The notes below the pieces were generated by a model that saw only the letters and a program-made list of their open reading frames with translations, did not search any database and was not told the origin of the DNA. Shown piece by piece: positions 3,332 through 26,000 of a stretch of DNA of 64,000 nt. Source of the stretch: Deltaproteobacteria bacterium (GTDB lineage: Bacteria > Myxococcota_A > UBA796 > SXON01); the NCBI GenBank assembly GCA_014191855.1, contig BJHF01000002.1:62001-126000 (forward strand), given 5' to 3'. Made by a program: the position numbers and the translations under genes. Each line of letters starts with the position of its first letter. Position 1 is the stretch's first letter.

Positions 3332-3730
3332 ATGTCGCTCGTCGATCACGTCAGTCTGTTCGTCGCCGATTATGAACGGTCCAAGGCGTTCTATGTGCGT
3401 GTGCTGGAGCCGCTCGGCGCGCAGTTGATCATGGAGTACGGCCGCGCGGCGGGGTTCGGCCACGACCGGAAGCCGGACTTCTGGATCGCCGAGGGGCCCG
3501 CGAGCTACCAGACGGCGGGGGACCTGTCTCCGATTACGCCGGTGCATCTGGCGTTTGTGGCTCGATCCAGGGCTCAGGTGGACGCGTTCTACGCGGCGGC
3601 GATCGCCGCCGGGGGGCGCGACTTTGGGGCGCCAGGGTTACGTCCCGAGTACCACGCGCAGTATTATGGGGCGTTTATCCTGGATCTGGACGGACACAAC
3701 ATCGAGGCTGTGGTGCACGGGCCGGGGTGA
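3332..3730 (+). CDS. VOC-family (glyoxalase/bleomycin-resistance/dioxygenase) protein
   Basis: A 132-residue single VOC module. It begins with the family's first beta strand MSLVDHVSLFVADYERSKAF (metal-ligand His at residue 6), has HLAFVARSRAQVDAFYAAA in the second half, and ends with YYGAFILDLDGHNIEAV, supplying the terminal Glu ligand. VOC proteins are metal-dependent enzymes or binding proteins acting on small molecules (glyoxalases, dioxygenases, fosfomycin or bleomycin resistance); the substrate cannot be told here. It is a stand-alone gene just upstream of the tRNA-fMet. Length is normal for a one-module member that works as a dimer. Confidence 0.88.
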   Translation: MSLVDHVSLFVADYERSKAFYVRVLEPLGAQLIMEYGRAAGFGHDRKPDFWIAEGPASYQTAGDLSPITPVHLAFVARSRAQVDAFYAAAIAAGGRDFGAPGLRPEYHAQYYGAFILDLDGHNIEAVVHGPG

Positions 3731-3770
3731 TGGGGCAGTGGCCCCGAGGGCACGACCGCGATCACCGACC

Positions 3771-7240: not shown

Positions 7241-10200
7241 TTACCCCAACTTGAAGTTCGCCTCCCCGCTCCGCACGCAGTCCACCAGCTTCTTGTCCAT
7301 CTCCAGCGTTGCCACCGGGTCGCGCACTTCGCGCACCACCGTGGCGACGGGCTGATCGGCGTCGGGCACCTCGACGAGGCGGAGCACATAGCTCTGGCCG
7401 TCAACGCGAGCGCGGTGGAACTCGTTGGTCGTGATGCGGAAGCTGAGCGACGCCGCGCTTGCAACCGCCTTGATCTCGACGCGCTTGAGGGTGGGCCAGC
7501 CTGGATCACCCGGGTCGCCGTCCCACTCGATTAGGTCGAAGCCGGGGCCTCGCTCGGTTGAAACGTCGAAGACGGCTCGGAATGGCTCGACGAGGCCGAG
7601 AATATCGGCATGGGTCGCCGCGGCGAGCGCCGAACCATGCTCCTTCGCCACCGCACGCGCCCGGGTGGCCCCCGCGTTCGTGCTCCACGCGACGCCCGGC
7701 GCTTCACGGCGCTCCACGACGGCCGCGATGAGGGCGGAGCGGTCCGCCGCCGAAAGCCCCACGAACCGCTGCCACAGCCAGCGAAGGCACGCGAATTCCG
7801 CTGCTTCCCCGCGGATAGGATCACCCACCGAACCACCACCGGCGCCGCCACCCCGCCCGGCGACATCAGGCACCGAGCCCGTGAGCACGCCGCCTGACGC
7901 GACCGGCTCGGCGGAAGCGAGGGACAACGGTGTGCTCAGCCACGCCAGAGCTCGCCCTTCCGACTGTTTTTTCTCCGACGAGGCCACCGAGTTGAGCCCC
8001 ACCTCGATCACCTCGGCATCGACCGAACCGATCAGGGTTCGCAGCCAGGCGGGTCGGGCGCTCGCCGTGCAAAGCCCTTCCATCGCCGCCAAAGCGGCGT
8101 CGCCGAGCGCACGCCACTCCACGACCGCCCAACCGACGGCAGGACACGAGCCCACCCCGGCTGGCGCTCCAAGGTCTGCCGTTAGTGCGCCTTCACCCTC
8201 CCACCAGTCGATCCGAAGCACCCTCGCCAGTTCCCCGCGGAACACACCCGCGGCGCTCGCGGCCGGCACCGAAGCCGGCGCCGCGAGCAACCGAGTCGCC
8301 GCCGCCAGCGACGCCAGCCGAACCAGCGCGTCGCGACACGCGGACTCGCCGGCGATCACCATGTCGTTCATCGCCCCCCGGGTTGGCAGCAACGACCCGG
8401 CGTACGCGCGAAGCGGGCCTACAACGTCCACCGTGGCAGCGTCGCCGGCGGCCAAAACCGCCCGCAGCCACCGGACCGACCCCGCCGACCCAACGACCCC
8501 CCGGACTACGTCCTCGCGGAGCGCCGCGTTGGCCTGGAGTACCGGCGGAACCACGGCGTCAAAGTCGGCGGCTACCGCTGCCTCACGCGCCAGCTTTGCA
8601 ACAGCCAGCTCGGCCACCGAGGCGATCAGCTCCTCCACCCTCACGTCCTGGTCCCGCAGCGAGGCGCGCACTTCCTCCACATCCTCGGTGAGGGCCCAAC
8701 GGAAGGTGTGCTCGTAGGTCGGAGCCCCGACGGCGAACGCGATGGCGCGGGCGAGCGTTGCGGCGAGCGGGCGCCCAGCGAGCTCCGCCGCGTCCAGCGC
8801 CTCCCGAGAAGCCACCAGCCCAGGTTGATCGCCCGAACTCAGCCCGGACGGCGGACGCAGGCCGGCTCCACGATGGATCCGGAGCCGCTCAATGCGGTCG
8901 AGGAGCGGACGCGCGTCGCCGCTCGGATCACCTCGTCGGAGGGCGAGCACACCGATGAGCTCGGGCAAGCGTCGCTCCAACGCCGCGCGAAGTTGCACGA
9001 CGAGCGCGGCCGCTTCGGGGGAGTCGTCAGTGACACCCGCGAAGGCAGGCACTGCGGGCTGGGGCGTTTCAGGAGCCCCAAGCGCGGCGACCAACGTGGC
9101 GAAGCGCGGACGATCCCCGCGGTCAACGACGAGCACGAGCTGATGCCGCACCAACCCGACCGGCGGCTGCTCGCGGTAGTTCGCGACCTCAGAGCGAATC
9201 GTCGCGACGTGGCTACCCTTCGTCGCAGCTACGCGAACCGCAACGTAGGCGTCGCCGCGCGTCGCAAGCAACCAGCCGGGCCGCAGCGCGAGATCACGCG
9301 CGCACCAGTCAAATCGCACCGCGTCCGCCACCCCCTGCAGAGCGTCGAGCAGGCGCCGAAGCAGGAGGTTTGCCGCACCGACCCATTGGGTTCGACCCGA
9401 GAGGGGGGGCAGTTCGATGACCATCGCTCCCTCGGGCGGCAGGGTCGCCATCGCTCGCTCAATGTGGTCCGAAAGCAGGGACCATGCCTTGTGGACGGGC
9501 AGCTCGTTCGCGGGGAGGATGCCCAGGGCGCTCGCGAGCGGACGCAAAGGATCAACACCGCTCTCTGGCGCGTGGAGTCGCGCGAGCCACCCTGTCTGCG
9601 ACGTTGCGGCGTCGGCCAGCGATTCGTTGGCGTAGATCAGCGCGTTTGCCGGCCTCGCCGTTGCCTCGATGGCGTGCCGAGTCCAGCTCGGCCAGATCGG
9701 CGTTCGTGCCAATTGCACGCGCAGCAGCGACGGCATCGCCTGGAAGTCCTGGCGGACCGCGTGGTACCCGTGGCATCCCCAGGAGGTGGTGAGCGCAGGC
9801 TCGAGCTCAAGGAGCACCTCGGACAGCGCGGCGCGGACGGCGATCATCGCCGCGGCGTCCTCGACGTCAAGCAGTTCCTCGCTCCACGTCCACGTGAGCG
9901 CAACCGCGTAGTTGTCCCCGCCGCGGTTGGCTGGCGGCCTCCGCTGCGAGCCCGGTCCCGCCGGACAGCCTGGACTGTGCCCCGTCGTGAGGCTGGGGTG
10001 ATGGTGGGACGACCACGCGATCCGTCGCCACTCGCTGAGGACCGGAGCCAGCGAGCCCGGCAGTCCGTGCGGCTTCCCAGCGCTCCACGCCTTCGCGAGC
10101 GCCGGACGGACAGCCCCTGAAATTTCGCCCCCCCCGTCGGCCCAGTGCGCCCAACGAAGCTGCACAACGGGCCCGACGGCCACGCCGAGCGAGAGGAGCA

Positions 10201-12832
10201 GCCGGGCGAGGGCGCGACGAGGATCGGCCGTACCGAGGCGGGTGAGCATATCGACCGCGGGTTTCCATGCGTCGTCATCGATTCCCGCGATGAGCAGGGC
10301 TGGATTCGGCAGCACTGCTCGCGCATTCGCCATCGCCCGGACCGCCCGCGCCCATCGGTCACCCCGTGTGGTGGTTCCGTCGTCGCCGCGGGGCCCGTCG
10401 ATGCGCTCAAGCTCAACCGCCCAGTCGGCCCCGAACGCCAGCTCGTCCGCGCACGCCCAACCCCGCGAAGACGTCGGCACGGACACCCGGCCGAGCCGCC
10501 GCGCGAAGGCGAGGTCGTCCCGCGCGTTCGGAGACGCCTCGCTCATCGCCGCATGAATCCGTTGGGCGTTGATCGCCGCATAGGGGATCGCGGGCCACGC
10601 CGCGCGGTCGAGCAGATCGACGAGCGCGGCGAGGTAGCCGACCAGCTCCGTGCTCTCCGGCGCGGCGTCCGCCAACCGATCTGCGACCTCCTCCGCCAAC
10701 GTGCGGAGGCGCTCCAGCCGCCGCGCCCCCCAGCGCTTCCCGTGCTGGGTGAGCATCGCGACGACGAGCTCGTCGTTCGCCAAGTGCTCGTCCGCGAGGA
10801 AGATGGGGAGCGTGGACGGCGGGGCGGGGAGCGCCGAGATGTCATCCTTGTCGTCGCGGTTGCGCCAAAGAAGCACACGGGCGCGGCGGAGGAACTGGGT
10901 TCCGGCCTCCGTGCGCGCCTGCACTTCGAGTCGAACCAACCTCGTCCCCACTCCGACGTCGCCCGCAGCCGGGACGAGCGGGAGCCGCCCCCTACCCAAG
11001 ACCTCGGCCACGGCAGGCGCGACGTCCCCGCACCCTTGGAGCCAGGCGGCGATGACCCTCACCCAGGCGCGAGCGGCATCGGCGTCGGCGGCAATCGCCA
11101 TCCCCTCCGCGTCGCCGAACGCCTCGACCAGTCGGTTCGCGGTTACGATGGCTCGACCACGATCCGCGAGGAGATCGCCCAGGCCCACCACCGCAGCGCG
11201 CCCGCGACCTGCCGCACCCTCCACCGCAACCATGCGTTCAAAGGCGGCAACACACGAGTCGCTGGCCTGCAGTTCGGGCAGCCGCTGCCCGAGAACGACA
11301 AAAGCGCGGGTTCGCGCCCGGTCGAACAGCAGGTCGCCGCCCTGGGCGGGCGGACCCGCCGCCGTCGGCACACAGGCTGTCGTTTCAAGTGCACCCAGCA
11401 GTCCCTCGATGAACCCCTCAAGCTGGCCGTTTCGCGACTTCGGCCCCTCGGTCGGGACCATCGCCCAGGGCATACACGAAGCAAGCGGTGAACCGGCAGA
11501 GGCCGCGTATTCGGCGGCCGCGACGATTAAGCCTCGCGCATGTTCGAAGATCGAGGCGTTCTGAGCGGCCTGTCGCAGCTCCTTTCGGTTCGGCGTCACC
11601 ACGAAAGGCGCGTGGAGCACAAACGGGAGGCCCGCCGTGGCATGCTCGATGGGGTAGAACAGCGCAAGCGGGCGGTCGCCGCCGCGTGGCGACGCTGCCT
11701 TGGTTGGCACCCGAATCAGCGCGCGGATGGGGGAAGACTCCGGCCTTCCGTCGTCACGCGCCACCTCGAAGGGTGCGGAAAACTCAAGGTAGTCCTGCTC
11801 ACCGGCCAGCTCGGCCACCGGTCCCACCTCACCGAACCGGCCGACGCGAACGCGGATCAGCGTCCGTCGATACCCGGGCCCGCCCGCCCCGAGCGCCGCG
11901 TCAGCCTCCCGGTCGAAGTCGAAGCGCAGGGCACCAACGATGCTGCCCGCCCGGATACGGACGAGGTGTACCTCGCTGAATTGTCCAAGCGTGATCAGCA
12001 CTTCCGGCGTGAGGTCCATCAGGTGCGCCCACGCCTCGTCGGCAGCGTCTCGTCCGTCGGTGCCCTGCACCTGCCACGCACCGTCACCGAAAGGCAGGTG
12101 CACGGTGGTGCGGAACCCGGGGAGCTCGCTCAGCTCGCCCTCGGCGTCCAAGCCCTCCGCGGTGTGGCGCCTGGGCGACCCATCCTCCAGAAGGTCCTCC
12201 AGCAGGTCGGCGTCGTGACCGGCGCGACCATCCAGGAGGTGCGGCGCCCGGAACAGCGGGATCAAGGCTTGGTCGGCCCGCCGGGAAAGAGCGAGGCGCT
12301 CGCCTTCCTCTCCGTTCGTCCGAAGCCGCGAGAGCTCGGCCTCCACGAAACGCCATGTTTCCGAACGCAAAAATCCTACGCGATGGACCTCACCCTCGTC
12401 GGATCGGCTCCGCACGGCGTACCCCGCCGCGCGCAGGATGATCGACTTCAGGCCGATGCCCTTGTGGCCGACGTACCCCGCCTTATCCGCCTTCGTTGAC
12501 CGACCGAGAAGGCACACCGCATCGAGTACGGCGGGGTCCCAGAGCCGGAACGGTGCCCCGTCGTTCGCGACGATCACGCCTGATTCGGTGACCCCGAACC
12601 ACGCCCGGCCGCCGCCGCCCTCGTGGAGCGCATCCCGCGCGTTCTGCGCAAGCTCCAACCAGTAGCGATCCTCGTGGTCGCCGGCGAGCGCGCGCTCGGC
12701 GGCACCCACGGTCAACCACGTCTTCCAGTCCTCGTCGTGCTCCAAGGCGCGAGCCAGGGACGCGAGCCGCTCATCCACGAGGGCGGCGAGTTTCGAGGCT
12801 TCGTCGTGTGCTCTGGGGGAGTCGTCGTTCAT
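7241..12832 (-). CDS. Giant protein: Hsp90-type (sacsin-like) ATPase domain plus C-terminal DUF3883
   Basis: About 1863 residues from ATG 12832. The N-terminal 200 residues form a GHKL/Hsp90-type ATPase: LELAQNARDAL is the N-box and VGHKGIGLKSI a G-box, the arrangement of sacsin-like ATPases. A long middle region has no recognised domain. The C-terminus (EWDGDPGDPGWPTLKRVEIKAV then SFRITTNEFHRA) matches DUF3883, which has a nuclease-like (E-x-K) core. Large proteins with this pair of ends are frequent in defence islands, so a defence role is inferred, not shown. It is divergent from the integrase. A GTG 54 nt upstream is an alternative start. Confidence 0.72.
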   Translation of the reverse strand: MNDDSPRAHDEASKLAALVDERLASLARALEHDEDWKTWLTVGAAERALAGDHEDRYWLELAQNARDALHEGGGGRAWFGVTESGVIVANDGAPFRLWDPAVLDAVCLLGRSTKADKAGYVGHKGIGLKSIILRAAGYAVRSRSDEGEVHRVGFLRSETWRFVEAELSRLRTNGEEGERLALSRRADQALIPLFRAPHLLDGRAGHDADLLEDLLEDGSPRRHTAEGLDAEGELSELPGFRTTVHLPFGDGAWQVQGTDGRDAADEAWAHLMDLTPEVLITLGQFSEVHLVRIRAGSIVGALRFDFDREADAALGAGGPGYRRTLIRVRVGRFGEVGPVAELAGEQDYLEFSAPFEVARDDGRPESSPIRALIRVPTKAASPRGGDRPLALFYPIEHATAGLPFVLHAPFVVTPNRKELRQAAQNASIFEHARGLIVAAAEYAASAGSPLASCMPWAMVPTEGPKSRNGQLEGFIEGLLGALETTACVPTAAGPPAQGGDLLFDRARTRAFVVLGQRLPELQASDSCVAAFERMVAVEGAAGRGRAAVVGLGDLLADRGRAIVTANRLVEAFGDAEGMAIAADADAARAWVRVIAAWLQGCGDVAPAVAEVLGRGRLPLVPAAGDVGVGTRLVRLEVQARTEAGTQFLRRARVLLWRNRDDKDDISALPAPPSTLPIFLADEHLANDELVVAMLTQHGKRWGARRLERLRTLAEEVADRLADAAPESTELVGYLAALVDLLDRAAWPAIPYAAINAQRIHAAMSEASPNARDDLAFARRLGRVSVPTSSRGWACADELAFGADWAVELERIDGPRGDDGTTTRGDRWARAVRAMANARAVLPNPALLIAGIDDDAWKPAVDMLTRLGTADPRRALARLLLSLGVAVGPVVQLRWAHWADGGGEISGAVRPALAKAWSAGKPHGLPGSLAPVLSEWRRIAWSSHHHPSLTTGHSPGCPAGPGSQRRPPANRGGDNYAVALTWTWSEELLDVEDAAAMIAVRAALSEVLLELEPALTTSWGCHGYHAVRQDFQAMPSLLRVQLARTPIWPSWTRHAIEATARPANALIYANESLADAATSQTGWLARLHAPESGVDPLRPLASALGILPANELPVHKAWSLLSDHIERAMATLPPEGAMVIELPPLSGRTQWVGAANLLLRRLLDALQGVADAVRFDWCARDLALRPGWLLATRGDAYVAVRVAATKGSHVATIRSEVANYREQPPVGLVRHQLVLVVDRGDRPRFATLVAALGAPETPQPAVPAFAGVTDDSPEAAALVVQLRAALERRLPELIGVLALRRGDPSGDARPLLDRIERLRIHRGAGLRPPSGLSSGDQPGLVASREALDAAELAGRPLAATLARAIAFAVGAPTYEHTFRWALTEDVEEVRASLRDQDVRVEELIASVAELAVAKLAREAAVAADFDAVVPPVLQANAALREDVVRGVVGSAGSVRWLRAVLAAGDAATVDVVGPLRAYAGSLLPTRGAMNDMVIAGESACRDALVRLASLAAATRLLAAPASVPAASAAGVFRGELARVLRIDWWEGEGALTADLGAPAGVGSCPAVGWAVVEWRALGDAALAAMEGLCTASARPAWLRTLIGSVDAEVIEVGLNSVASSEKKQSEGRALAWLSTPLSLASAEPVASGGVLTGSVPDVAGRGGGAGGGSVGDPIRGEAAEFACLRWLWQRFVGLSAADRSALIAAVVERREAPGVAWSTNAGATRARAVAKEHGSALAAATHADILGLVEPFRAVFDVSTERGPGFDLIEWDGDPGDPGWPTLKRVEIKAVASAASLSFRITTNEFHRARVDGQSYVLRLVEVPDADQPVATVVREVRDPVATLEMDKKLVDCVRSGEANFKLG

Positions 12833-13008
12833 GACCACAACCTTAACCCAGCCAAACACTGACGCCTCACGCCGGTGCGCGAACATCCGGCAAGCATCGC
12901 TTCCTGCAAAACAACCCGAAGGTCATTCGTCGACTACACCTGGTAGCACAAGGATGATACAGAACCGGCGTGTCGCTGGCTCAAACGCCAGCCGCCCCCG
13001 GAGCACCC

Positions 13009-14133: not shown

Positions 14134-14392
14134 GCGAGCCGGTAAACGCCGCCGATCTCGATCACGGACGGAGTGAACAATGCCCTGGCCTCGGTCGGCG
14201 ACTCGACTCGTTGTGGGCCGCGCCGAAGGCCCACCCCGGGCCGGCGAACCGGCAGCGGGGTGGGCGCGGGGGTCTTCGGCGGCTTTTGCCGCGCTGGCCG
14301 GGAGGGAGAGTGGTCAGAACCTGGGCACGGGGCCCGCGTCCGTGAACGGAGGCCATCTGGCCGGCGCCCCCGAATCCGGAGGCGGTCGTGAG
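14134..14392 (-). ncRNA. Non-coding region downstream of the DGR template repeat (possible TR-RNA spacer)
   Basis: These 259 bp between the integrase stop and the TR hold no supported gene. A strong nested hairpin lies at 14230-14264: CCCACCCCG pairs with CGGGGTGGG, and inside it GCCGG pairs with CCGGC around a 4-nt loop. In the Bordetella phage DGR, structured RNA flanking the TR is needed for priming by the RT-Avd complex, so this may be the equivalent spacer. Alternatively the hairpin simply ends transcription of the integrase or the TR RNA. Confidence 0.4.
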
Positions 14393-14514
14393 CTCGCGAG
14401 GCGGAAGCCGTAGTTGTTGTTGGCGTTGCTCGGGGTGTTGTTGTTGCGATAGGCAACCGTCGCGTTCGACGCGTTGTTGTTCCAATTGCCACCCCGAATC
14501 ACACGGTTGGAGCC
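14393..14514 (-). repeat. DGR template repeat (TR)
   Basis: A 122-bp region 46 bp downstream of the RT gene that aligns without gaps to the VR at 16627-16748. The coding-strand TR holds about 33 adenines. Eighteen positions differ from the VR and all eighteen are TR adenines; the other 89 positions are identical. The TR reads in the target frame as [20 protein letters not shown] and onward, with AAC/AAT codons exactly where the target protein varies. Similarity stops at both ends, with G/C mismatches just outside the 3' boundary, as expected for IMH versus IMH* differences. Confidence 0.97.
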
Positions 14515-14560
14515 TGCTCCCTCCTTGCCTCGCTCAACGTCGCTCGCCGAGAGGGGCGCG

Positions 14561-15559
14561 TCAACCTTCGCCGCCGCCCGCCACGATCTTCTGTCGCAAC
14601 CTCAACGTGTCCGCATGGGTGGCCCACGCGAGCACCGAGCCGGCGCGCCGCTGGGCGTCCTCGTCGCTGAGCAGTCCCGCAGCAGACAGCAGCCGCAGCG
14701 TGCGAAGCCGGCGTCGAAGCCGACGAACCCGGACCGAGTCGAGCCGGACGAGGCGCGGCCAAATGCGGAAGCCGAGGTAGGGAACTCCCGCGCACACGGG
14801 CGCGACAATCGTGGCCTCGGTCTTGAGCGCGAGGCCAAGCTCGGCGTTCACCCACGTTTCCGCCCGCGTGGCCCAGGCCCGCACGGACGCGTTGTCGGGG
14901 CCGAACCACAACACGTCATCCATGTACCGAACGAGGGCCGGGACGCGGAGCGTGCGGCGCGCGAATTGGTCGAAGAACGAGAGATAGAAGTTCCCGAAGT
15001 GCTGGGACGTGAGGTTGCCGATGGGGATGCCGGTGGCGGCCCCCGGGGCGCCCACTACGAGGATGCGCTCGACGACCGTACGGAGGCGCGCGTCCGTCAA
15101 ACAAGCGGCCAGCCTCGCGAGGAGACGATCATGGGGGACAGTCTCAAAGAAGTGGCGTATGTCAAGCTTTACGAACCAGGGGTGGAGACGGGTGTGGCGC
15201 TGGGCGCGCAGCACGGCGGCATGAGAGCCCTTGCCCGGGCGGCAGGCGTAGCTATCGTGATCGGCGCGGGCTTCGAACAGGGGATTCAGCTCGGCGCAGA
15301 CGGCATGGTGAACGACGCGATCGCGAAACGCCGCCGCGGAGATCGTGCGGGGCTTCGGCTCACGGATGCGGAACGTCGTATGCGCGCGCGGCATCCAGGT
15401 CCCGGCGAGCAGTTCCCTCTCCATAATGAGCACCTCCGACTCAAGATCGGCTAGGAACGCGGCGACCTCGCGGGAAGCTCCGTGGCCGCGCGCTGCTCGC
15501 AGCGCGGCCGCACGCAAGGCGCCGAACGAGGCCATCCGGTCGAAGGAGGGGGCGATCAC
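14561..15559 (-). CDS. Reverse transcriptase of a diversity-generating retroelement
   Basis: A 332-residue RT of the group II intron/DGR lineage. The palm motif YMDD is at residues 212-215 ([10 protein letters not shown]), and the SQ motif [14 protein letters not shown] places Ser-Gln at 185-186, the diagnostic position of DGR and intron RTs. Earlier motifs are visible ([23 protein letters not shown]). There is no maturase or endonuclease domain. DGR RTs copy the TR RNA with errors at adenines, and the cDNA then replaces the VR. The start ATG overlaps the avd stop by 4 nt, so the genes are translationally coupled. The TR follows its stop by 46 bp. Confidence 0.97.
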
Positions 15560-15903
15560 GGCCGCGATTCGATGTGTTTGCGCCAGCCACCCAGCATGCG
15601 CCCCGCCTCGTCCACGCCTCGGACGACATGTTCGAACCCGCCGGTGTCCAAATACCTGCGGTCGTGGGCGAGCCGCAGCAGCACGTGGAGCCGCACGAGC
15701 AGTAGGTCGGCTTCGGCGAGCAACACCCGCTTTCGCGGCGCCGGCGCCCAGCGCGCCTCGGCGATGCGCTCCAGAAAATCCAGCACGATCCCGTCGATGC
15801 GGCCGGCGAAGGTGAAGCGGACGACCTTCGGGAACTTCGCTGTTCGATCCAGAAGATCGCCGACGACCCGCTCCCAGAGCACCAGCAGCGCGGGCTCATC
15901 CAC
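15556..15903 (-). CDS. avd: DGR accessory variability determinant (Avd)
   Basis: A 115-residue all-helical protein. FPKVVRFTFAGRIDGIVLDF, LLLVRLHVLLRLAHDRRYLD and VDEAGRMLGGWRKH are the conserved blocks of the Avd four-helix-bundle family, which forms a pentameric barrel that binds RT and the TR RNA and is essential for mutagenic homing. I placed the start at GTG 15903 because the family begins just there and it overlaps the end of the HRDC gene by 8 nt; the open frame extends further upstream, but that part is a basic, low-complexity translation of the HRDC gene in another frame. It is followed by RT with an ATGA overlap. Confidence 0.93.
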   Translation of the reverse strand: MDEPALLVLWERVVGDLLDRTAKFPKVVRFTFAGRIDGIVLDFLERIAEARWAPAPRKRVLLAEADLLLVRLHVLLRLAHDRRYLDTGGFEHVVRGVDEAGRMLGGWRKHIESRP

Positions 15904-16387
15904 CGGCTTCGCCAGCGGTGCGGAGCAGGGCGAGCAGGTCATCGGCGTAATCGCGAATGCGCGCCTCGCCGACCCCGTGTACCCCTTCCAGCGCCGCCTT
16001 CGTCTCCGGCCTCGCACGCGAAATATTCGCGAGTTGGCCGTTGGTGAACAGGACGTACGGCGGGCGACCGTCCCGCTTGGCGCGGTCGTTGCGCCACTTG
16101 CGGAGGGCCTCGAAGATGGCGCGGTGTTCGGGTTCGAGCTCGATCGTCGCCTCCGACTCCCCCCTCCGGCCCTCGGCCACCTCCCTCCGGTGGGGGGAGG
16201 ACGAAGCGCCGCGACTCGTCGCCTCCCGATACCGCACCACCATCGTGAGCGTCGGCACCCCGTCGTGAACGAACCAGTGCTCGGTGGCGTCTATCGCGTC
16301 GTGCTCTGCGAAGAAGGCGGTCAGCGCGGTATCGTCAAACGTGCCCGCCACCGGATCGAGCTTGAAGGTGAACATTCGCATCTTCAT
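15896..16387 (-). CDS. HRDC-domain protein associated with DGRs
   Basis: About 163 residues. The N-terminal half (MKMRMFTFKLDPVAGTFDD then ALTAFFAEHDAIDATEHWFV) is the segment typical of DGR-linked HRDC proteins. The C-terminal half is an HRDC domain (IFEALRKWRNDRAKRDGRPP through LANISRARPETKAAL and GVHGVGEARIRDYADDLLALL), a nucleic-acid-binding module of RecQ and RNase D. HRDC proteins are a known accessory of a subset of DGRs and may help cDNA or target handling; their role is not settled. Between the halves is a charged low-complexity insert rich in Ser/Arg/Glu. ATG 16387 is chosen over 16411; 16381 is also possible. Confidence 0.85.
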   Translation of the reverse strand: MKMRMFTFKLDPVAGTFDDTALTAFFAEHDAIDATEHWFVHDGVPTLTMVVRYREATSRGASSSPHRREVAEGRRGESEATIELEPEHRAIFEALRKWRNDRAKRDGRPPYVLFTNGQLANISRARPETKAALEGVHGVGEARIRDYADDLLALLRTAGEAGG

Positions 16388-16613
16388 GCGGAGTCCGTCC
16401 GCGGCATCCACCGCTGGGGGCTATCGCCCCCAGACCCCCATGTGATCGCACGACAACCTCCCTGCCGCCCCCCCACGTCTCCGCGCTCAGGCGGCCGGCC
16501 GGCTACCGCACGGCCAAGCTCGCCCGGCGCTCCCACGTGGGGGGGGGGGGGGGGCGAAAGTCGCTTTTGAGGCCGAGAAAGCGAAGACTTCCAAGCGAAC
16601 AAGGGTTCAAGTA
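16388..16613. other. Intergenic region with 16-G tract and a hairpin next to the VR
   Basis: This 226-bp gap lies between the DGR target and the HRDC gene. It contains an uninterrupted run of 16 G (16539-16554) preceded by CCCAC. Around 16558-16590 AAGTCGCTTT can pair with AAAGCGA-AG-ACTT around a 10-nt loop, about 37 bp beyond the 3' end of the VR. Hairpins just downstream of the VR promote target recognition in the Bordetella phage DGR, so this is a candidate equivalent. No gene is seen. Confidence 0.55.
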
Positions 16614-18056
16614 TCAAGGGATCGACCTCGCGAGGCGGAAGCCGCAGTAGTTGTAGGCGAAGCTCGGGGGGTAGAAGTTGCGATAGGCAACCGCCGCGAG
16701 CGACGCGTCGGTGCTCCAATAGCCACCCCGAACCACACGGTAGGAGCCGGATGCCGGCCCGGGCGGGTCTGACGTCGCGACACCGCTGCCGTAGCCCCCG
16801 TACGCGCTGTCATACCAGTCGTTCGTCCATTCCCAAACGTTCCCGCTCATGTCGCAGAAGCCCCACGCGTTTGCGGCCAACGAGCACCCCGAGTGTGCGT
16901 ACGTTCCCATCGTGTACGCATTCTCGTGCGTCCAAGCTACGTTCGCCGCCGTGTTTGAGCCTGAGTAAGTAGTGTCTACGCCGGCGCGGGCCGCGTACTC
17001 CCACTCCGCTTCGGTGGGCAGGCGGTAGCCCGGGCACGAGTACGGATCCGCGAGGTAGGCGGCGGCCATGTCCGTGCCGTCCGCAAGGTAGCACTCGGTC
17101 AGGCCCTCTTCGGTGGAGAGCCAGTTCGCGTACATTCCCGCGTCGTACCAGGTCATCGTGTCGGCCGGGCAGTCGGCCGTAGTGCCCGTGCAGGGGTAGC
17201 TGGGGAGCGACGAGTAGGTCCAGCTCGTGTTGCTCGGGTCGGTCTCCCATTCCCCGCGCGTGGTCTCCGTTTGGGCAAGGTAGAAGTGGTGGCTGAGCGT
17301 CACATCGTGATCGAGGTAGGAACCGCCCGAGTCACCAAGTCCGCTGCCCATCGAAAACGTGCCGCCTGTAAGGTAGATCATCGTGGCCCCGGAGGCGGCG
17401 CTATACGACGCCGCGCAGCCCGCCAGCACGTCCGGCAGCGAGGCGTCGGTGTCGTCGCAGTCGGTCGCGTCGGCAACGTAGGCAGCGGGCTCGTCGCAAG
17501 CGAGGGTCGTATATGCGGCGTCGCCAAACCCGTCGCCGTCCGTGTCCGCATACCAGGTTGCGGCATCCGCGGCTGAAGACTCATCAACGGTGCCATCGCA
17601 GTCGTTGTCCACGCCGTCGCACACCTCGTCGGCGCCGGGGGAAATGGCCGCGTCGGTGTCGTCGCAGTCCGTCGCGAGCGGGTAGCCGTCCCCGTCCGCG
17701 TCCTCGGTGGCCGTGTCCACTGAAGTGTCCGCCGTATCCACCGCCGTGTCCGAGGTATCTACCGAGGTATCCACGGCCGTATCGGCGGTGTCGCTCGTGT
17801 CGGTGGCCGTGTCCGACGTATCGAGGCCCGTGTCGGCGCCCGTGTCTGTGTCCCCTGTGTCAACGCCAGTTTCACCGCCGGTATCCCCAGTTTCGCCGGT
17901 CTCCGAGCCGGTTTCGCCCGTGTCCACGACGCCCGTGTCCCCCGTCTCCCCGCTGTCCACCTCCCCGCTGTCGCTCGGCTCCACTGCAAAACCGACTTTC
18001 TGCGTGATCTCCGCCGGAAGGATCAGCGTACACCCTGCCAAATAGAGCGCGATCAC
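16614..18056 (-). CDS. DGR variable target: lipoprotein with MopE-like repeats and FGE-sulfatase/C-type-lectin domain
   Basis: A 480-residue protein. GTG 18056 overlaps the upstream stop as GTGA and gives the lipoprotein signal MIALYLAGC (Cys at residue 9). Next is a Thr/Asp/Gly/Glu-rich linker of more than 70 residues with many ETGDTG-like units, then two Asp/Cys MopE-type repeats (DCDDTDAAISPGADEVCDGV and a partner), then an FGE-sulfatase domain (MIYLTGGTFSMGSG, GYRLPTEAEWEYAARAG, WGFCDMSGNVWEWTNDWYD), a C-type-lectin-like fold widely used by DGR targets. The VR covers residues about 437-477 and ends just before the C-terminus. Likely surface-exposed with a diversified ligand-binding face. 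Partner unknown. Confidence 0.93.
   Translation of the reverse strand: MIALYLAGCTLILPAEITQKVGFAVEPSDSGEVDSGETGDTGVVDTGETGSETGETGDTGGETGVDTGDTDTGADTGLDTSDTATDTSDTADTAVDTSVDTSDTAVDTADTSVDTATEDADGDGYPLATDCDDTDAAISPGADEVCDGVDNDCDGTVDESSAADAATWYADTDGDGFGDAAYTTLACDEPAAYVADATDCDDTDASLPDVLAGCAASYSAASGATMIYLTGGTFSMGSGLGDSGGSYLDHDVTLSHHFYLAQTETTRGEWETDPSNTSWTYSSLPSYPCTGTTADCPADTMTWYDAGMYANWLSTEEGLTECYLADGTDMAAAYLADPYSCPGYRLPTEAEWEYAARAGVDTTYSGSNTAANVAWTHENAYTMGTYAHSGCSLAANAWGFCDMSGNVWEWTNDWYDSAYGGYGSGVATSDPPGPASGSYRVVRGGYWSTDASLAAVAYRNFYPPSFAYNYCGFRLARSIP
16627..16748 (-). repeat. DGR variable repeat (VR)
   Basis: A 122-bp region at the 3' end of the target gene, gaplessly homologous to the TR at 14393-14514. 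Eighteen substitutions relative to the TR, all at TR adenines, change 15 residues. Examples are [11 protein letters not shown] to [19 protein letters not shown] to RNFYPPSF and ANNNYG to AYNYCG. The invariant GFRLA follows the last variable codon. All four kinds of outcome at adenines (A retained, or C, G, T) are present, so this VR has been through mutagenic homing. Confidence 0.97.
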
Positions 18057-18937
18057 CACGTCACCGCCGCGACAACGCCGAAGGCCACGCCCGCGCCCGC
18101 TGCGACGTAACAACCGTAGCTGAGCCCGTTTGTCCCCGTCGCCATGCCCTCAAGCTTCGCCCGGTAGTTTGCGCGCTCTTCGTCGCCAACGTCGCCGTCG
18201 AGCGCCAGCTGCGCATCAAAGTCCGCGCGCCCCTCCGCCGCGAGCGCGTAAAGCACGCCCGAGGTGATCAGCGACGCTCCAGAGAGCACCAACCACGGCG
18301 CTCGATGCCCCCACTCGCCGGAGGGCGGTCGCTCCGCCGTTCCCCGCGCGTCGCTCAGGTTCGCTGTCGCCACCGACGATTCGGCCACCGGAACCACCCA
18401 GTCGAAGCCGACTTCGTCCGGCCAGCGGTAATGCGTCGCGAGCACCGCACCCTGCCCGTCGAGCTGCTGCAAGATCGCCGCGCGTAATGACGGGGCCCGG
18501 AGCACGTGCGTACCGTCGGCTTCGATCCAGCCGCTGCCCGGCTTCGGCAGCTCGGCGCCCAGGTCGTCGTGGAGGTAGAGCATGGCGGCTGTGACCTGTC
18601 CGCGGATGGGGTGCCCGTCCGGCAGTAGCGCCGTTGGAATCTGGTGTCCCGGCTCGGTGGCAAACACACCCGCCAGCGCGAGGGGAACCCGGTCGAGCCG
18701 CTGGTCGAGGAAGGCGCCAAGGGCCTCGACGCGATGAATCCGTGCCTGGGCGTTCACGCTCAGCACCTCGGCGGCGCACGACGTCCGCAACTCCAGGGCC
18801 GCGGTGGAGTCCTTGAAGCCAGCGCGATCAGCCTTGGCAAAGGCCGACTCCGCCGAGTTCGCCGCTTCGAGGATGTCGCCCGTGTCGAACATCCGCGGAC
18901 ACTCGGCGAGCGCATGGGTTGCGAGGAGGAGGAACAT
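18053..18937 (-). CDS. Secreted or membrane protein of unknown function upstream of the DGR target
   Basis: A 294-residue protein with a short signal peptide, MFLLLATHALAECPRM. The middle is helical with scattered Cys (CAAEVLS), then ILQQLDGQGAVLATHYRWPDEVGFDWVVPVAES. The C-terminal third has two hydrophobic stretches, APWLVLSGASLITSGVLYAL and CYVAAGAGVAFGVVAAVTW, probable membrane helices. The layout resembles myxobacterial signal-peptide proteins with C-terminal helices found beside PEGA-type genes, but no family is recognised. Its stop overlaps the target gene start (GTGA), so it is probably cotranscribed with the DGR and may help display or export the variable lipoprotein. Confidence 0.6.
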   Translation of the reverse strand: MFLLLATHALAECPRMFDTGDILEAANSAESAFAKADRAGFKDSTAALELRTSCAAEVLSVNAQARIHRVEALGAFLDQRLDRVPLALAGVFATEPGHQIPTALLPDGHPIRGQVTAAMLYLHDDLGAELPKPGSGWIEADGTHVLRAPSLRAAILQQLDGQGAVLATHYRWPDEVGFDWVVPVAESSVATANLSDARGTAERPPSGEWGHRAPWLVLSGASLITSGVLYALAAEGRADFDAQLALDGDVGDEERANYRAKLEGMATGTNGLSYGCYVAAGAGVAFGVVAAVTW

Positions 18938-20032: not shown

Positions 20033-22177
20033 TCAATCCGCCCACTCCCGCCGCATCCCCTCCCCCACTTCCACCTCGCGCGCCCACTGCACCGCCCCCG
20101 CTACGTCGAGGAACGCCGTACGCAAAAACTCCTGCTCAAATTCATCGGGCAGGCACGCCTGGAACGCCGACAACACCGCCGTTCGGGTGTCGGTGTCGAA
20201 GCGCCCCCACTCGTCCACGGGCGGAAGATCACCCTCGACCAGCATTTCCTGCACCGCGACGAGCCCCTCCACGATGGCGGGTCGCACGCCCTTGATCTTC
20301 ACCGAGATGTTGCTGACCGTGGCTTCAACGCCCAGAGTCGCCGTGAGCAACCGGGCGAGCACCAGGTTGATCCGGGCCCCGGCGAAGGTGTACCAGATGA
20401 GGCGGTCGTCGTCACGGACGACGGGACGAAGCCGGCCGCCGAGGCCGAGGCCCCGCACCTGTTCGCGTGCGTGTTCCAGCCACGCAGCGGCCGTGGGGGA
20501 GACGCCAAGGGGCACCTCGTTCGACACGAGGAGGTCGAGGATCCGCTCACACACCACCCGCGAGAACGCAGCCGGGCGGCCGGTCCACGACGGCACAACG
20601 CCCGCGGGGGCGGGGCGCACCCTGATCGTCCCGCTCTTCAGGTCGATGTCTTCGGTGGCCCACGCCCGCCCGGCGAGCCGGAACGCGCGTTTGCCACCCG
20701 CGAGCTGGCCGACGAACCAGCTCTGGATGGTGCCGATGTCGTGGCCCGCGTGCCTCACCGTCAGCACCTGCGGCGAGTCGAACACCGCGTAGAGCTTGAA
20801 GAAGTTGCGCCCCCCAAAAACCTTCTCCGCGCGTTGGCCCAACATCAGGACCCCATCGGCCTCGTCGAGCCAGCCCTCCGTTCGCAGGTGCGCCACGAGG
20901 GTCGCGAATTCGTCGAGGGTGACCCCGGAGAACGACGGTACCGGGTGTAGGCGGCGCCAGAGCGTCGCCGGGGTGAGCCCCCCACTCTCCAGCAGGTTGG
21001 CGAAGAGCTGGTGAACGAACACCGTCCAGTTCCGCGCGCTGGGCGCGATAGCCTCCACCCAGCCCTCCTCGAAGCGCGAGACAAGCGCCAGCGCCAGGAG
21101 CAGATCTTCGGGGGCGTCCGCCACGAACGTCATGCGGGGGACAGTGCCCGCGCGCCGGCCGGTCCTCCCTAGGCGCTGCGCGAGCGACGAGACGGTGGCG
21201 GGGGCATCAAGCTGGAAGATGTGATCGAGGTCGCCGATGTCGATCCCCAGCTCCAGGCTGCTGGTTGCGACGAGCGTGGCGCCGGGAGCGGTCTCGAACG
21301 CCAGCTCTGCCTCGTCCCTCGCTGCCCGACCGACAGACGAGTGGTGAACCCACACCTGCACCCCCACCTCTTGCAGGGTTTTCGCCAACTCCTCCGCCCG
21401 GGAGCGACTCTCCACGAACACCAGGCGCTTCTGGCCCGCGCCGAGATCGCGGATGATCCCCGCCGCCGCTCGCGTGCCCTGGGCCGCATGCCAGGCGAAC
21501 TCCGCTTTCTTTCGCTCCGAGGCCGGGGCCACCACCACGGGCTGAGCGGTAGCGCCGCTCCCTTGGAGCCACCGGGCGAGGGCTGCCGGATTGCCAACCG
21601 TGGCGGAGAGCCCGATGCGCTGAATGTGGGTGCCCGACCGGAGCTGGAGCCGCTCCAGAACGGAGAGCAGGTGAGCACCGCGAGGATCCGCCGCGAAGGC
21701 GTGAACCTCGTCGATCACGGCGATGCGTACGCGCGGCAGCAGCAGCCGGGCGTTGTCCGCTGGAGAGATGAGCAGCACCTCCAGCGACTCGGGAGTGATC
21801 ATCAACACGTCGGGAGGCTCGGCCACGATGGCGCGCCGGGTCGCAGCGGGCACGTCGCCATGCCACTTTCCCACCCGAAGCCCCACCGCCTCCGCCATGC
21901 GAGAAAGCCGGGCTTCCTGGTTGTTTAGCAGCGCCCGTAGGGGGCAGATGTAGAGGGTGGACACCGCCGCCAGCCGGTCGCTGAGCACGCGGGAGAGCAC
22001 CGGGAACGCTGCCGCCTCCGTCTTCCCTCCCGCGGTCGGTGCGAGCACGATGCAGTCCCGTTGATCGAGGATCGGCGCGATGGTCGCCTCCTGTACCGGC
22101 CGAAGGCCCGGAAACCGGAGCACGTCGCGAACAAGGTAGCGAACCGACGGATGGAGACGGGCGAAGTCGCCGCTCAC
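20033..22177 (-). CDS. brxHI: BREX system DEAD/DEAH-box helicase BrxHI (Lhr-like)
   Basis: A 714-residue superfamily 2 helicase. Motif I APTAGGKT is at residues 46-53, motif II DEVH at 156-159 (IAVIDEVHAFAADPRGAH), motif III GLSATVGNP near 190, and motif VI QRLGRTGRRAG after ATSSLELGIDIGD. The Lhr-like core is followed by a C-terminal half specific to the family. BrxHI is a signature gene of type 2 BREX, together with BrxD and PglWXYZ; its exact step in defence is not known. The GTG start at 22177 overlaps the brxD stop by 4 nt. It is the last gene of the BREX block. Confidence 0.9.
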   Translation of the reverse strand: MSGDFARLHPSVRYLVRDVLRFPGLRPVQEATIAPILDQRDCIVLAPTAGGKTEAAAFPVLSRVLSDRLAAVSTLYICPLRALLNNQEARLSRMAEAVGLRVGKWHGDVPAATRRAIVAEPPDVLMITPESLEVLLISPADNARLLLPRVRIAVIDEVHAFAADPRGAHLLSVLERLQLRSGTHIQRIGLSATVGNPAALARWLQGSGATAQPVVVAPASERKKAEFAWHAAQGTRAAAGIIRDLGAGQKRLVFVESRSRAEELAKTLQEVGVQVWVHHSSVGRAARDEAELAFETAPGATLVATSSLELGIDIGDLDHIFQLDAPATVSSLAQRLGRTGRRAGTVPRMTFVADAPEDLLLALALVSRFEEGWVEAIAPSARNWTVFVHQLFANLLESGGLTPATLWRRLHPVPSFSGVTLDEFATLVAHLRTEGWLDEADGVLMLGQRAEKVFGGRNFFKLYAVFDSPQVLTVRHAGHDIGTIQSWFVGQLAGGKRAFRLAGRAWATEDIDLKSGTIRVRPAPAGVVPSWTGRPAAFSRVVCERILDLLVSNEVPLGVSPTAAAWLEHAREQVRGLGLGGRLRPVVRDDDRLIWYTFAGARINLVLARLLTATLGVEATVSNISVKIKGVRPAIVEGLVAVQEMLVEGDLPPVDEWGRFDTDTRTAVLSAFQACLPDEFEQEFLRTAFLDVAGAVQWAREVEVGEGMRREWAD

Positions 22178-23505
22178 AAGTCGAAGCCTTCCGGGAGCGG
22201 CGCGACCTCGGCCTCGGCCACGTTGCGCCCCTCGATGGCAGCCCGCTCCGCGTCGGCCAGCTCCGGATCCGTCGCGTTCACCTGAAACCGGAAGTGCTCG
22301 TGTGGCCGGTACGCGACGTGTTGTTGGCAGCGGCCCAAGACTCCGATCAGCTCACGCAGGAACCGGCGCGGCGTCGTCTCGACCTTGCCACGAAACGCGC
22401 CGGCCACCTCGCCAGCGAGTCGCGAGACGAAGGCGTCGTCGCAACGGTCGGTCGTGCCCGGATACCGAACCTCGTACAGATCGCGCACCGCAACGCCTAC
22501 ACTCTGGAGCCGCGCAGCGTTGAAGGGGGGAAGGGCGATCTGAGCCGCGTCGAGGTCGGGGAAAGGGCCGTCGTCGAGGGTGCCAATGCGCTGCTGGAGC
22601 GGTTCCAGCATCGGCACCGCCCGCGAGGAGGTGAAGAAGCTCGACGTCCCGGCCACGACGAGCAGCACCCCCGGCACCTGCCCCGCCTCCATCGCGCCCA
22701 TCCAGTTCTGGAGCAGTTCCAGGCCGGTTTTCCGGGAGTCGGCGCGGGGGAGGCGCACCAGGCGCTCCACCTCGTCCACCACCACCACGAGGCCGCGGTA
22801 GCCGGCTTGGGTGACGAGCGCGGCGAGGCCCCGGAGCATCGGGAGCACGTCCGTAGCGTCGAGGTTTCCGACGAGGTGCGCCCGCCGCTTGGCGGTGGCC
22901 GCCACCTTGGGATCGCCTCCGACCCATTGGAGCAAGGCGCGGGCCACCTCCTCCTCCCCGGCGAGAGACGCCGCCGCGTAGGCGCCCAGCGCCTGGGCGA
23001 ACGCGGGCGCGGCGTCCGCCACCCCGCCGAGCATGGTCTTGACCTCCTTGGACAACGCCTCGTCGAAGCCCGGTTCACCCGGCTGGAGCCCGTGCCCCAG
23101 CGAAGGGTCCATCACGCGCTCGGTCGCCTTGTATAGCCACTGCTCGGCCACGTGGCGCAGCGCACCATCCGGGCGCTCCGACACCCCCAGCCCCGAGCAG
23201 AGCGCTCGGTACACCGCCACGGGTTTGTGGAGCGGCACCTCGGGGTAGCTCACGCGGACGTAGCTGGCCGCGAAGCCTTCCTTCCGGGCCAACGCGGCGA
23301 GGTAACGCAGGAAGAACGTCTTCCCCGCGCCGAAGTCGCCGCGGACGAAGCGGGCTCGGCCTCGCCCCGCGGCGATCCGCGGAAGCTCCTTTGCCAAGGC
23401 GGCGATGTGGGCCTCGATCCCCGTGGCGATGGCGTCCTGGCCCTCAGCCGGCACCTCACCCACCCGCAGCGCCTCGATGACGATGTCGGCTGTACGTTCG
23501 TCCAT
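22174..23505 (-). CDS. brxD: BREX system ATP-binding protein BrxD
   Basis: A 443-residue AAA-type ATPase. Walker A is GDFGAGKT (residues 56-63), followed by the family string FFLRYLAALARKEGFAASYV; Walker B is GLVVVVDEVERL. The protein matches BrxD (DUF2791-type P-loop), found in BREX types 2 and 6. It is believed to act with the partner helicase. ATG 23505 was chosen because it overlaps the pglZ stop by one base (TGATG), consistent with every other junction in this operon; the open frame allows 7 more residues upstream. Confidence 0.9.
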   Translation of the reverse strand: MDERTADIVIEALRVGEVPAEGQDAIATGIEAHIAALAKELPRIAAGRGRARFVRGDFGAGKTFFLRYLAALARKEGFAASYVRVSYPEVPLHKPVAVYRALCSGLGVSERPDGALRHVAEQWLYKATERVMDPSLGHGLQPGEPGFDEALSKEVKTMLGGVADAAPAFAQALGAYAAASLAGEEEVARALLQWVGGDPKVAATAKRRAHLVGNLDATDVLPMLRGLAALVTQAGYRGLVVVVDEVERLVRLPRADSRKTGLELLQNWMGAMEAGQVPGVLLVVAGTSSFFTSSRAVPMLEPLQQRIGTLDDGPFPDLDAAQIALPPFNAARLQSVGVAVRDLYEVRYPGTTDRCDDAFVSRLAGEVAGAFRGKVETTPRRFLRELIGVLGRCQQHVAYRPHEHFRFQVNATDPELADAERAAIEGRNVAEAEVAPLPEGFDL

Positions 23506-26000
23506 CAACCGCGTCCTCCCACCCAACGATACCGCCGCTCACCGCCCGATTCTTCCTCGACAAACGGCGCTGAAACGCCGGCCCGTGCGAGCAGCGCGAG
23601 GCACCGACTCATCACACCGCCCACGATGAAGGGGGCCTGCCCGAGCAGGACACAAAGTTGGGCCATGGTCAGAACCTCGGCGCGCGCCAGGTGAGCGAGG
23701 GCTCGGAGCGCCAAGGGTTGGGACGCGAGGGCACGCTGCACGCCGTCCGAAAGGTCCGATCCGGGCACGCTGGGCGGTGCCCCGAGCACGCGCACTGGCT
23801 CCGGGGCGGGCGCGAGCTCCTCCGTCGCCGCGCCGGTCCACCACCAACTCGGCGGCCGCGGACGCCCCTCCGCTCCCTCCACGCGCCCCAAAAACGCGAG
23901 GGGCACAATCATCTCCTCGATGCCGGCCCCGCCGTGGAATCCCCGGTGTTGCGGCCCGCAAAAGTGGCCCAGCGCAACGAGGCAGTGCAGCGGGGAGAAC
24001 GGAAGCGGTCCCTCGCGAAACTCAACGGACCCGGGGAGCGGCTCCGCACCGAAGCGCGCCCCCAGCGCGCTGGCCGCCACCTTGCGGTCGCCGGCCAGAA
24101 ACGGCGTGTGCCCGTGGTCGGCGGTCACGACGACGGTCCATCCGTGGTCAGCCGCGAACCGGATCGCGTCCAGGGCACCGCCGCCGAGCGCCGCGAGGCT
24201 CCACTCGGCGAGGGCCGTCGTTTCCTTGCTGGAAAGGGCGTCGTCGACCCCGTTGAACACGGCGGCGACGATGCGTTCGTTACCTGAGCGCAACGCTGCG
24301 ATCAGCGCGCTGGGGTCGGCCAGGTCGCCCTTGAGGAACAGCGTCCGCGGGTGTTGGCGCAGGGCCGCGTTGCGCGAGAACGCTTGTTTGTCGGCCGTAC
24401 TGTTGGCCACGACGCTCTCCGAGTCGGTCAGCGAGGCGTTGCCGGGAATCTCGCCAGCAAAGATCGCGCGGCGCGCGTGGCTCGTAACCGTCGGCACCGG
24501 CGAGATCGCGACGTGGAAAGGGCCGATAGCGGCGAGGTCGTCACGGAGCGGGCCATCCGCCACCGCTGGAAGCCGGAGCCCCAGGCCGGGAGGCAACGCC
24601 TCCGCGATCTCGGTGAACGTGGACAGGTCGCCCCCATCGAGGACGACGAGGAAGACCCGCTCACCGGCATCCACAAGGCGAGCGACCACCGACCGGGAGA
24701 CGTGGGCGAGCGGCAGGGGCGCGCGCAGGTCCTTCGAGGCATTCACCCGCCCCCAGTTGGCGGAAAACGTCTCGGCGAAGGCGCGGTTCCACACGTCACG
24801 CCACGCGAAAGCGCGCGAGAGGATCGCCTTGGTGGCCTCGGCCATCGCGCCGGACTCGCCGCCGGCCCGGCGCCGAATGCGGCGAATCGCAAGGTCGAAC
24901 CAGCCGATGTGATCGCGAGCCGCCCACGCCCACTTCACCCAGTCCGCGGGCGGGAGGGCCGTGCGCGTTGCCCGGGCGAGGCGGGCGAGGTCCCGCACCT
25001 GGGCGATCTCCTCGTTCGCATCGTCTGCGTGGATGTTGGCACGCAGGGCATCGATCAGGCCGTCATCCGGAGGATCGCCGTCGGCGCATCGATGAGCGAA
25101 GTCGAACAACGCCTGGTCGAGCGCGGCGCGGACGAGGGGCAGCCGCGGTGCCTGTTGCTCCGTGATGCGGCGTCGATGCGCCAATTGCTCCGCCGTCGCG
25201 AGTGCAGCTCGGGCGCGCTCGGGGGCCACGCGCCAGGCTTGTCGGAGGGCGAGATCGACGAGGTTTCGCAGCTCGCGCCACTCTCCCGGCGAGCGGGGAA
25301 CCGGCTCGACGGCCGTTTCGGGCGTCAGCTCCGCGAGCGCCCCGGCGGCCACCAGGCCCGGGATGTCGCCCGTGCGGGCGGCATAGGCCAACCAGCGGCC
25401 GGTGCGCGGATGCGCTTCGACGAGGGCTCGCTCCAGCATCTCGGGGATCCGCGTCGTCGGGGCTCGGTCGATGATCCAGCGCGCGAGAAGGTCAGAGTCA
25501 CGCTCGCGATCCAGCCGCTCATCCGTCCCGAGCTCGGCGGCGACAAGAACCGCCCGCACCTCAGCCGCGGTCACGATGCCGTGCTGGCTCCACCGGGAGG
25601 ACTGGTCGCGGAGGCGATCCAGCGACGCCAACACCGCGGCGCCCACCTCGTCCTCGGGGAGCGGCTCACAATCGCGGCCCGTCAGCGCCGCCACGATGTC
25701 GTCGGCCCGCAGCTCCACGGGCTTCCGCAGCCAGGCGCGCCCGGCGATGTCGAGCGGCGGCACAAACGCAGGGGGGACGATGGCGAGCAGCCGCGACGCC
25801 TCCGGCAGAGCGTCGCGGAGGGTCAGCTCGCCGGTCACGCGCTGGATGCGCCACTCCTCCCCGAGGAGCACGGCCGACGCCGACACGTCCCGGAGCACCA
25901 CGTGGTCGCGAACCAACACCAGATCGTGTTTCAGCGCCTCGCTCTGCTGTCCACGACGTAAACAGGCGTCTAACGCCCGCTCGCCGAAGGTGAGCGTCAC
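23505..26000 (-). CDS. pglZ: BREX phosphatase-fold protein PglZ
   Basis: An 831-residue PglZ, the only gene common to all BREX types. The alkaline-phosphatase-superfamily core is in the C-terminal half: LDGGD (residues 454-458) holds the first metal-binding Asp, and VVVTADHGHTPFL (DHGH at 628-631) and GGAGIEEMIVPLAFLG supply the others. The N-terminal half is helical and BREX-specific. PglZ is required for defence and for PglX function in known systems. GTG 26000 overlaps the pglY stop (GTGA). The last 60 residues resemble a winged-helix module. Confidence 0.93.
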   Translation of the reverse strand: MTLTFGERALDACLRRGQQSEALKHDLVLVRDHVVLRDVSASAVLLGEEWRIQRVTGELTLRDALPEASRLLAIVPPAFVPPLDIAGRAWLRKPVELRADDIVAALTGRDCEPLPEDEVGAAVLASLDRLRDQSSRWSQHGIVTAAEVRAVLVAAELGTDERLDRERDSDLLARWIIDRAPTTRIPEMLERALVEAHPRTGRWLAYAARTGDIPGLVAAGALAELTPETAVEPVPRSPGEWRELRNLVDLALRQAWRVAPERARAALATAEQLAHRRRITEQQAPRLPLVRAALDQALFDFAHRCADGDPPDDGLIDALRANIHADDANEEIAQVRDLARLARATRTALPPADWVKWAWAARDHIGWFDLAIRRIRRRAGGESGAMAEATKAILSRAFAWRDVWNRAFAETFSANWGRVNASKDLRAPLPLAHVSRSVVARLVDAGERVFLVVLDGGDLSTFTEIAEALPPGLGLRLPAVADGPLRDDLAAIGPFHVAISPVPTVTSHARRAIFAGEIPGNASLTDSESVVANSTADKQAFSRNAALRQHPRTLFLKGDLADPSALIAALRSGNERIVAAVFNGVDDALSSKETTALAEWSLAALGGGALDAIRFAADHGWTVVVTADHGHTPFLAGDRKVAASALGARFGAEPLPGSVEFREGPLPFSPLHCLVALGHFCGPQHRGFHGGAGIEEMIVPLAFLGRVEGAEGRPRPPSWWWTGAATEELAPAPEPVRVLGAPPSVPGSDLSDGVQRALASQPLALRALAHLARAEVLTMAQLCVLLGQAPFIVGGVMSRCLALLARAGVSAPFVEEESGGERRYRWVGGRG

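Follow-up and report, generated by a model that had tools for sequence, protein, structure and literature searches.

A complete chromosomal diversity-generating retroelement with a template-trailing RNA and apparently several targets of two kinds

The question raised by this locus is whether two similar repeats, lying on either side of a reverse transcriptase (RT) gene, belong to a complete diversity-generating retroelement (DGR) and how far the action of such an element reaches in its genome. The window, i.e. the whole stretch of DNA that was analyzed, comprises 64,000 nucleotides of a deltaproteobacterial contig (BJHF01000002.1). The template repeat (TR; 14393-14514, minus strand) holds 33 adenines and ends in GCGAG|CTCA (IMH*-like), and the variable repeat (VR; 16627-16748, minus strand), which lies in the 3'-terminal part of the target gene, ends in GCGAG|GTCG (IMH-like). 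The original prediction had described a gap-free alignment of 122 bp with 18 differences; recomputation gave the same differences at the same coordinates, and the pair was also the longest family in an independent repeat search. All 18 changes from TR to VR (10 A>T, 5 A>G and 3 A>C) fall at adenines of the coding-strand TR. The recount likewise agreed that 15 of the 33 adenines are unchanged and that all 89 non-adenines are identical in this cis VR. The probability of such a distribution arising by chance is 7e-13 (hypergeometric). At the protein level, 15 of 40 residues are substituted, in accordance with the earlier count, and these residues lie within the FGE/C-type-lectin domain of the target. 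A 3'-terminal VR in the gene for a C-type-lectin-fold target is itself a feature by which a DGR is recognized.

The three genes between the repeats are intact, supported by Pfam matches, overlap one another and share the minus strand with the target, which bears out the single overlapping set proposed previously. The RT (332 aa; 14561-15559) matches RVT_1 (3e-15) and has intact YMDD and TSQ motifs. Across an eight-sequence alignment, YMDD is invariant, and so is the SQ motif of DGR type (IPIGNLTSQ). Its closest solved relative is the chain named reverse transcriptase in 8ub7 (1e-42), which we take to be the RT of the BPP-1 DGR. An Avd-type accessory protein (approximately 15556-15903; bAvd PF22296, 2e-11, above the cut-off) and an HRDC accessory protein (15896-16387; HRDC, 4e-19) complete the set. 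The latter consists of an N-terminal beta-alpha-beta-beta domain and the HRDC domain; the N-terminal domain is well predicted, yet the significant PDB matches all cover the HRDC part. The target (16614-18113, minus strand) is a predicted lipoprotein with an Asp/Thr-rich linker, a MopE motif and an FGE-type C-type-lectin domain (FGE-sulfatase, 6e-42). Among solved structures it is closest to TvpA (2y3c, 2e-27), a variable protein of the Treponema denticola DGR, and in the structure prediction the VR region is of low confidence. The start of the target gene is uncertain, from a GTG at 18056 to a TTG at 18113, and the upstream start is favored because it provides a charged n-region followed by VVIALYLAGC. 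The interval originally assigned to the element, 14134-18056, does hold the TR, VR, RT, Avd and HRDC, but the target may start beyond its end, and it includes neither the partner gene that precedes the target (18053-18937, minus strand; without a Pfam match) nor the targets at other places of the genome. The original prediction also lacked the template RNA and the decayed second cassette described below. No stem-loop was detected 3' of the VR; for five VRs, the folding of the 3' flank did not surpass that of shuffled sequences. A run of at least 16 G/C bases was observed approximately 75-90 nt downstream of the VR in the window (16539-16554) and at a paralogous target (locus L042), and it could be a phase-variable or an assembly-prone tract.

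The organization of the cassette is kept in relatives of the same phylum. The gene order HRDC-Avd-RT-TR recurs in the relatives, HRDC and Avd both precede the RT in 13/13 of their cassettes, and in 11 relatives the VR is located upstream and the TR downstream of the cassette genes. Taken together, the 12 TR/VR pairs (11 relatives and the window) differ at 204 of 375 template adenines vs 11 of 1128 other bases. The relatives' targets combine FGE domains with parts of kinase, SAM-kinase, subtilase, Ig or MopE type. The search for the target VR in related genomes that had been suggested with the original prediction revealed similar VRs in the same-genus genomes G005 and G009 and in a family member, G020; no RT was found in G005 and G009, through loss or incompleteness. 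In G020 the cassette is located on contig C62, whereas the four VRs that match its TR are on C46 (three) and C367. A 14-nt insertion was noted in the TR of G020 (L011, 1976-2111), and all four VRs are without it. The adenine-only pattern recurs in another 11 cassettes from the lineage and in unlinked VRs, which sustains the claim of completeness. The locus is confirmed as a genuine, complete DGR; it is a chromosomal (cellular) one and represents one more case of a known type of system.

The host genome, a 6.95-Mb MAG, was searched with the TR, and matches were obtained at seven places, the TR and VR of the window included. The remaining ones are a second TR (TR2) and a VR on contig C39, and VRs on contigs C134, C200 and C228. 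Compared with the window TR, the four remote VRs, all on other contigs, differ at 17/33, 21/33, 21/33 and 19/33 adenines and at 4/89, 7/89, 9/89 and 23/89 non-adenines, respectively, and the adenine bias is significant in all of them (Fisher, 1e-9 to 1e-3). The non-adenine differences form a gradient, rising from the fresh cis VR to the drifted remote VRs, and the 4-23 such differences in the latter suggest that they are rarely refreshed or no longer refreshed. After GAG, the VRs of the genome continue with GTCG and the TRs with CTCA, so that the IMH/IMH* difference is present. Contig C39 carries a decayed second cassette, in which TR2, with a 27-nt deletion, adjoins an RT remnant of ~54 aa. 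In the decayed cassette at L042 (4967-5430), only the C-terminal part of the RT is left, and by eye the neighboring sequence resembles a GxxExxY-type protein. The C39 VR has at TR position 18 the base of the window TR, not that of the neighboring TR2, and it spans the stretch deleted from TR2, which is consistent with this VR having been written in trans, or at a time before TR2 changed. The C200 target is a fusion of a Ser/Thr kinase with an FGE domain. In the MAG assembly, the targets on C39 and C134 look frameshifted, and C200 and C228 are short contigs for which mis-binning is possible. Judged from these sequences, the targets that the DGR has apparently served number at least five and are dispersed in the genome.

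The adenine-confined pattern is, at the level of sequence, a demonstration of past mutagenic homing at the locus, as had been claimed, and the DGR is probably active now. We infer this present activity from the genomic record: ongoing homing is plausible because the cis VR has no non-adenine drift and all parts are intact. The same pattern could, however, be the fossil of a formerly active element that is now silent and decays like the copy on C39. The decayed state of that sister cassette, the non-adenine drift of the remote VRs and the failure to find an RT in any same-genus genome searched would all suit a fossil, which we nevertheless regard as unlikely, since the proteins and the RNA of the window are all intact and the cis VR shows 0/89 non-adenine differences, so that homing must have been recent relative to neutral drift. 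It is somewhat less probable still that the additional VRs are gene-duplication copies of one diversified target, produced without homing in trans. Copies of the partner gene stand beside the paralogous targets on C39 and C228 at 85-87% identity, so these loci were duplicated. However, VRs within the genome differ from one another at 19-25 of the 33 TR-adenine columns (~60-75%) and at 4-29 of the 89 other columns, which mostly match, and differences concentrated at template-adenine columns point to repeated, separate homing events. Moreover, the C200 VR belongs to a different protein, the kinase-FGE fusion, the C39 VR agrees with the window TR at position 18 and covers what TR2 has lost, and the four VRs of G020 are on contigs other than that of its cassette.

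A further alternative concerns the neighborhood, in which the DGR would be part of a defense island and would diversify a sensor for the adjoining BREX type 2 system. This system (20033-42716, minus strand) is located directly upstream of the cassette on the same strand and comprises PglW (38616-42716), PglX (32885-36820), BrxC/PglY (25997-29857), PglZ (23505-26000), BrxD (22174-23526) and BrxHI (20033-22177); an integrase gene lies downstream of the cassette. Such a functional link is very improbable, because within contexts of up to 20 kb neither the BREX genes nor the integrase were found beside the relatives' cassettes, with the exception of one weak helicase match. The BREX/integrase neighborhood was therefore rejected as a part of the DGR, and the adjacent BREX-2 island looks incidental.

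The reading of the locus as a probably active DGR with targets in cis and in trans extends to a structured RNA that trails the template. In a four-locus comparison, conservation runs ~180 nt beyond the TR. The RNA core (14270-14359, minus strand) consists of a helix with a UCACGG loop, an AGG...UGACCA linker, a second helix and CGAAGA, and is followed by a terminal G+C-rich, terminator-like hairpin (14229-14265, minus strand). A covariance model (R1), built from five distant loci with the window excluded, finds the window RNA at 14270-14359 on the minus strand with 45.3 bits (E 4e-11). Among 31 sequences, double changes were observed in 13 of 14 pairs, with a covariation of 0.720 vs at most 0.124 for slid partners and 0/500 shuffles as high; these alignments are model-fitted and the counts lean toward the model, a bias against which the slid partners and the shuffles serve as controls. 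When 284 genomes of the phylum were searched, 33 matches were obtained, in 22 genomes. One match, L110, looks like a false positive and was discarded. An RT or RT remnant lies close upstream of the RNA in 24 of 29 testable loci, and the other five include units of TR and RNA that are separated from the RT. In G235, such a unit is located upstream of the target with the RT on the same contig at a distance of 3.7 kb, and the VR differs from the TR at 8/28 adenines and 0/84 non-adenines. In G101:C44, a unit with a nearby VR (25/33 adenines and 11/88 non-adenines differ) lies on a 97-kb contig on which no RT was found. The host genome has exactly two RNA matches, both at TRs. In a Thiodictyon DGR (L041, TR 3601-3739), the TR is followed by hairpins that include a UUGGUAG...CGAAG motif resembling the terminal hairpin seen in several chromosomal relatives.

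Viral DGRs allowed the position of the RNA to be compared in elements of the opposite gene order. When 80 viral loci, picked by their RT alone, were scanned with the RNA model from chromosomal loci, 28 of 36 matches (E <=5) were on the RT strand and at most ~240 nt upstream of the RT; in 19 of the 20 loci checked, the TR (closest candidate each) ends 3-25 nt before the RNA. After retraining with 18 viral RNAs, the model gave 40 matches in held-out viral loci, of which 38 occupy the same place upstream of the RT and two are tandem copies in one locus. The RNA thus lies 3' of the TR even where the RT is on the opposite side, and therefore it follows the template. In Rfam, the viral element is assigned to RT-14 (RF02921) and the BPP-1 spacer to Phage_DGR (RF03022), both of which share with the window RNA a position 3' of the TR. 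The segments named RT-14 are matched by the model of the window lineage, whereas no Rfam family matched the window itself, with no score above the gathering cut-off of Phage_DGR or RT-14, and in eight chromosomal relatives none exceeded the threshold (a weak RT-15 hit in one, 22 bits against a cut-off of 82). The BPP-1 spacer was not detected by models R1-R3, and a resemblance to the window RNA is seen only by eye (UACGG loop, AGG...A, CCUGC-hairpin-CGAACA). Also by eye, the conserved adenine of UGACCA (14314), the predicted priming base, falls opposite position 56 of the BPP-1 spacer, an A that is the priming position there. The window RNA is best called, from these comparisons, a diverged branch of the known DGR RNAs. 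On viral contig L149, a template-like repeat together with the RT-14 RNA occurs in three tandem copies (3229, 3533 and 3837), 304 nt apart.

In BPP-1, the spacer RNA recruits RT-Avd, and a spacer adenine primes cDNA synthesis into the 3' end of the TR (PMC12875486). The locus very probably operates in a comparable way, as a cellular, RNA-primed and adenine-mutagenic DGR that homes into FGE/C-type-lectin targets in cis and in trans. An operon transcript would carry the TR with the structured RNA directly 3' of it, and this RNA, by analogy with BPP-1, may recruit and prime the RT-Avd complex. The RT places random bases opposite the adenines of the TR when copying it, a pattern that the sequences show for several genes and species, and the cDNA would home into VRs ending in GCGAG|GTCG (IMH), with the TR itself spared; this one-way direction is suggested by the different ends of VR and TR (GAGGTCG vs GAGCTCA). 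The HRDC protein, co-encoded in all relatives examined, probably aids strand opening or homing. The presumed targets are FGE/C-type-lectin binding domains, namely the cis lipoprotein and FGE proteins in trans, including a Ser/Thr-kinase sensor, whose lectin surface may be a diversified ligand site with specificities re-rolled on a fixed scaffold. A wider and decidedly tentative proposal, which we hold to be possible but short of probable, is that the lineage maintains a distributed hypermutation network, in which one RT-Avd-HRDC set would serve separable units of TR and trailing RNA (an undescribed subfamily) and write in trans to unlinked lipoprotein and kinase sensors. Hints of this are given by G101:C44, G235, TR2 on C39 and the VRs that lie remote from the cassette in G000 and G020. 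Novelty lies above all in the targets of two kinds, which are apparently distributed, and in the RNA branch that is tied to the template. The locus offers a clean chromosomal DGR in which one template apparently serves several targets, belonging to two kinds, and its RNA stays with the TR on either side of the RT. The way in which an RT finds and primes its template thereby becomes testable outside one model phage, and the covariance model can find DGR templates, including RT-less ones that RT-based surveys overlook.

Among the known systems, the BPP-1 DGR shares adenine-specific TR/VR differences, Avd and a homologous RT (bRT, 8ub7). Its structured spacer RNA is likewise 3' of the TR (PMC12875486), but the order is TR-Sp-RT as opposed to RT-TR-RNA in the window, no HRDC gene is annotated in its cassette, its target is a viral tail, and a stem-loop follows its VR. 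In the T. denticola DGR, a single TR goes with as many as seven remote VRs, an HRDC accessory gene and TvpA (PMC4891356). It thus resembles the window in its HRDC accessory, its several remote targets, many of them lipoproteins, and the closest solved target structure, but according to the published description its HRDC gene lies between TR and RT, whereas in the window the TR comes after the RT and Avd and HRDC occur together in one operon. The DGRs of Thiohalocapsa PB-PSB1 share FGE-fused conflict-type targets and degenerate loci, and trans activity is the best explanation of their VRs, as here (PMC10907252); that genome, however, has several independent DGR classes, while the window genome has one intact cassette and one remnant. 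Elsewhere in the window, 7241-12886 (minus strand) encodes a protein of 1881 aa with a NO VEIN C-terminal domain and an N-terminus similar to the defense protein TmtA.
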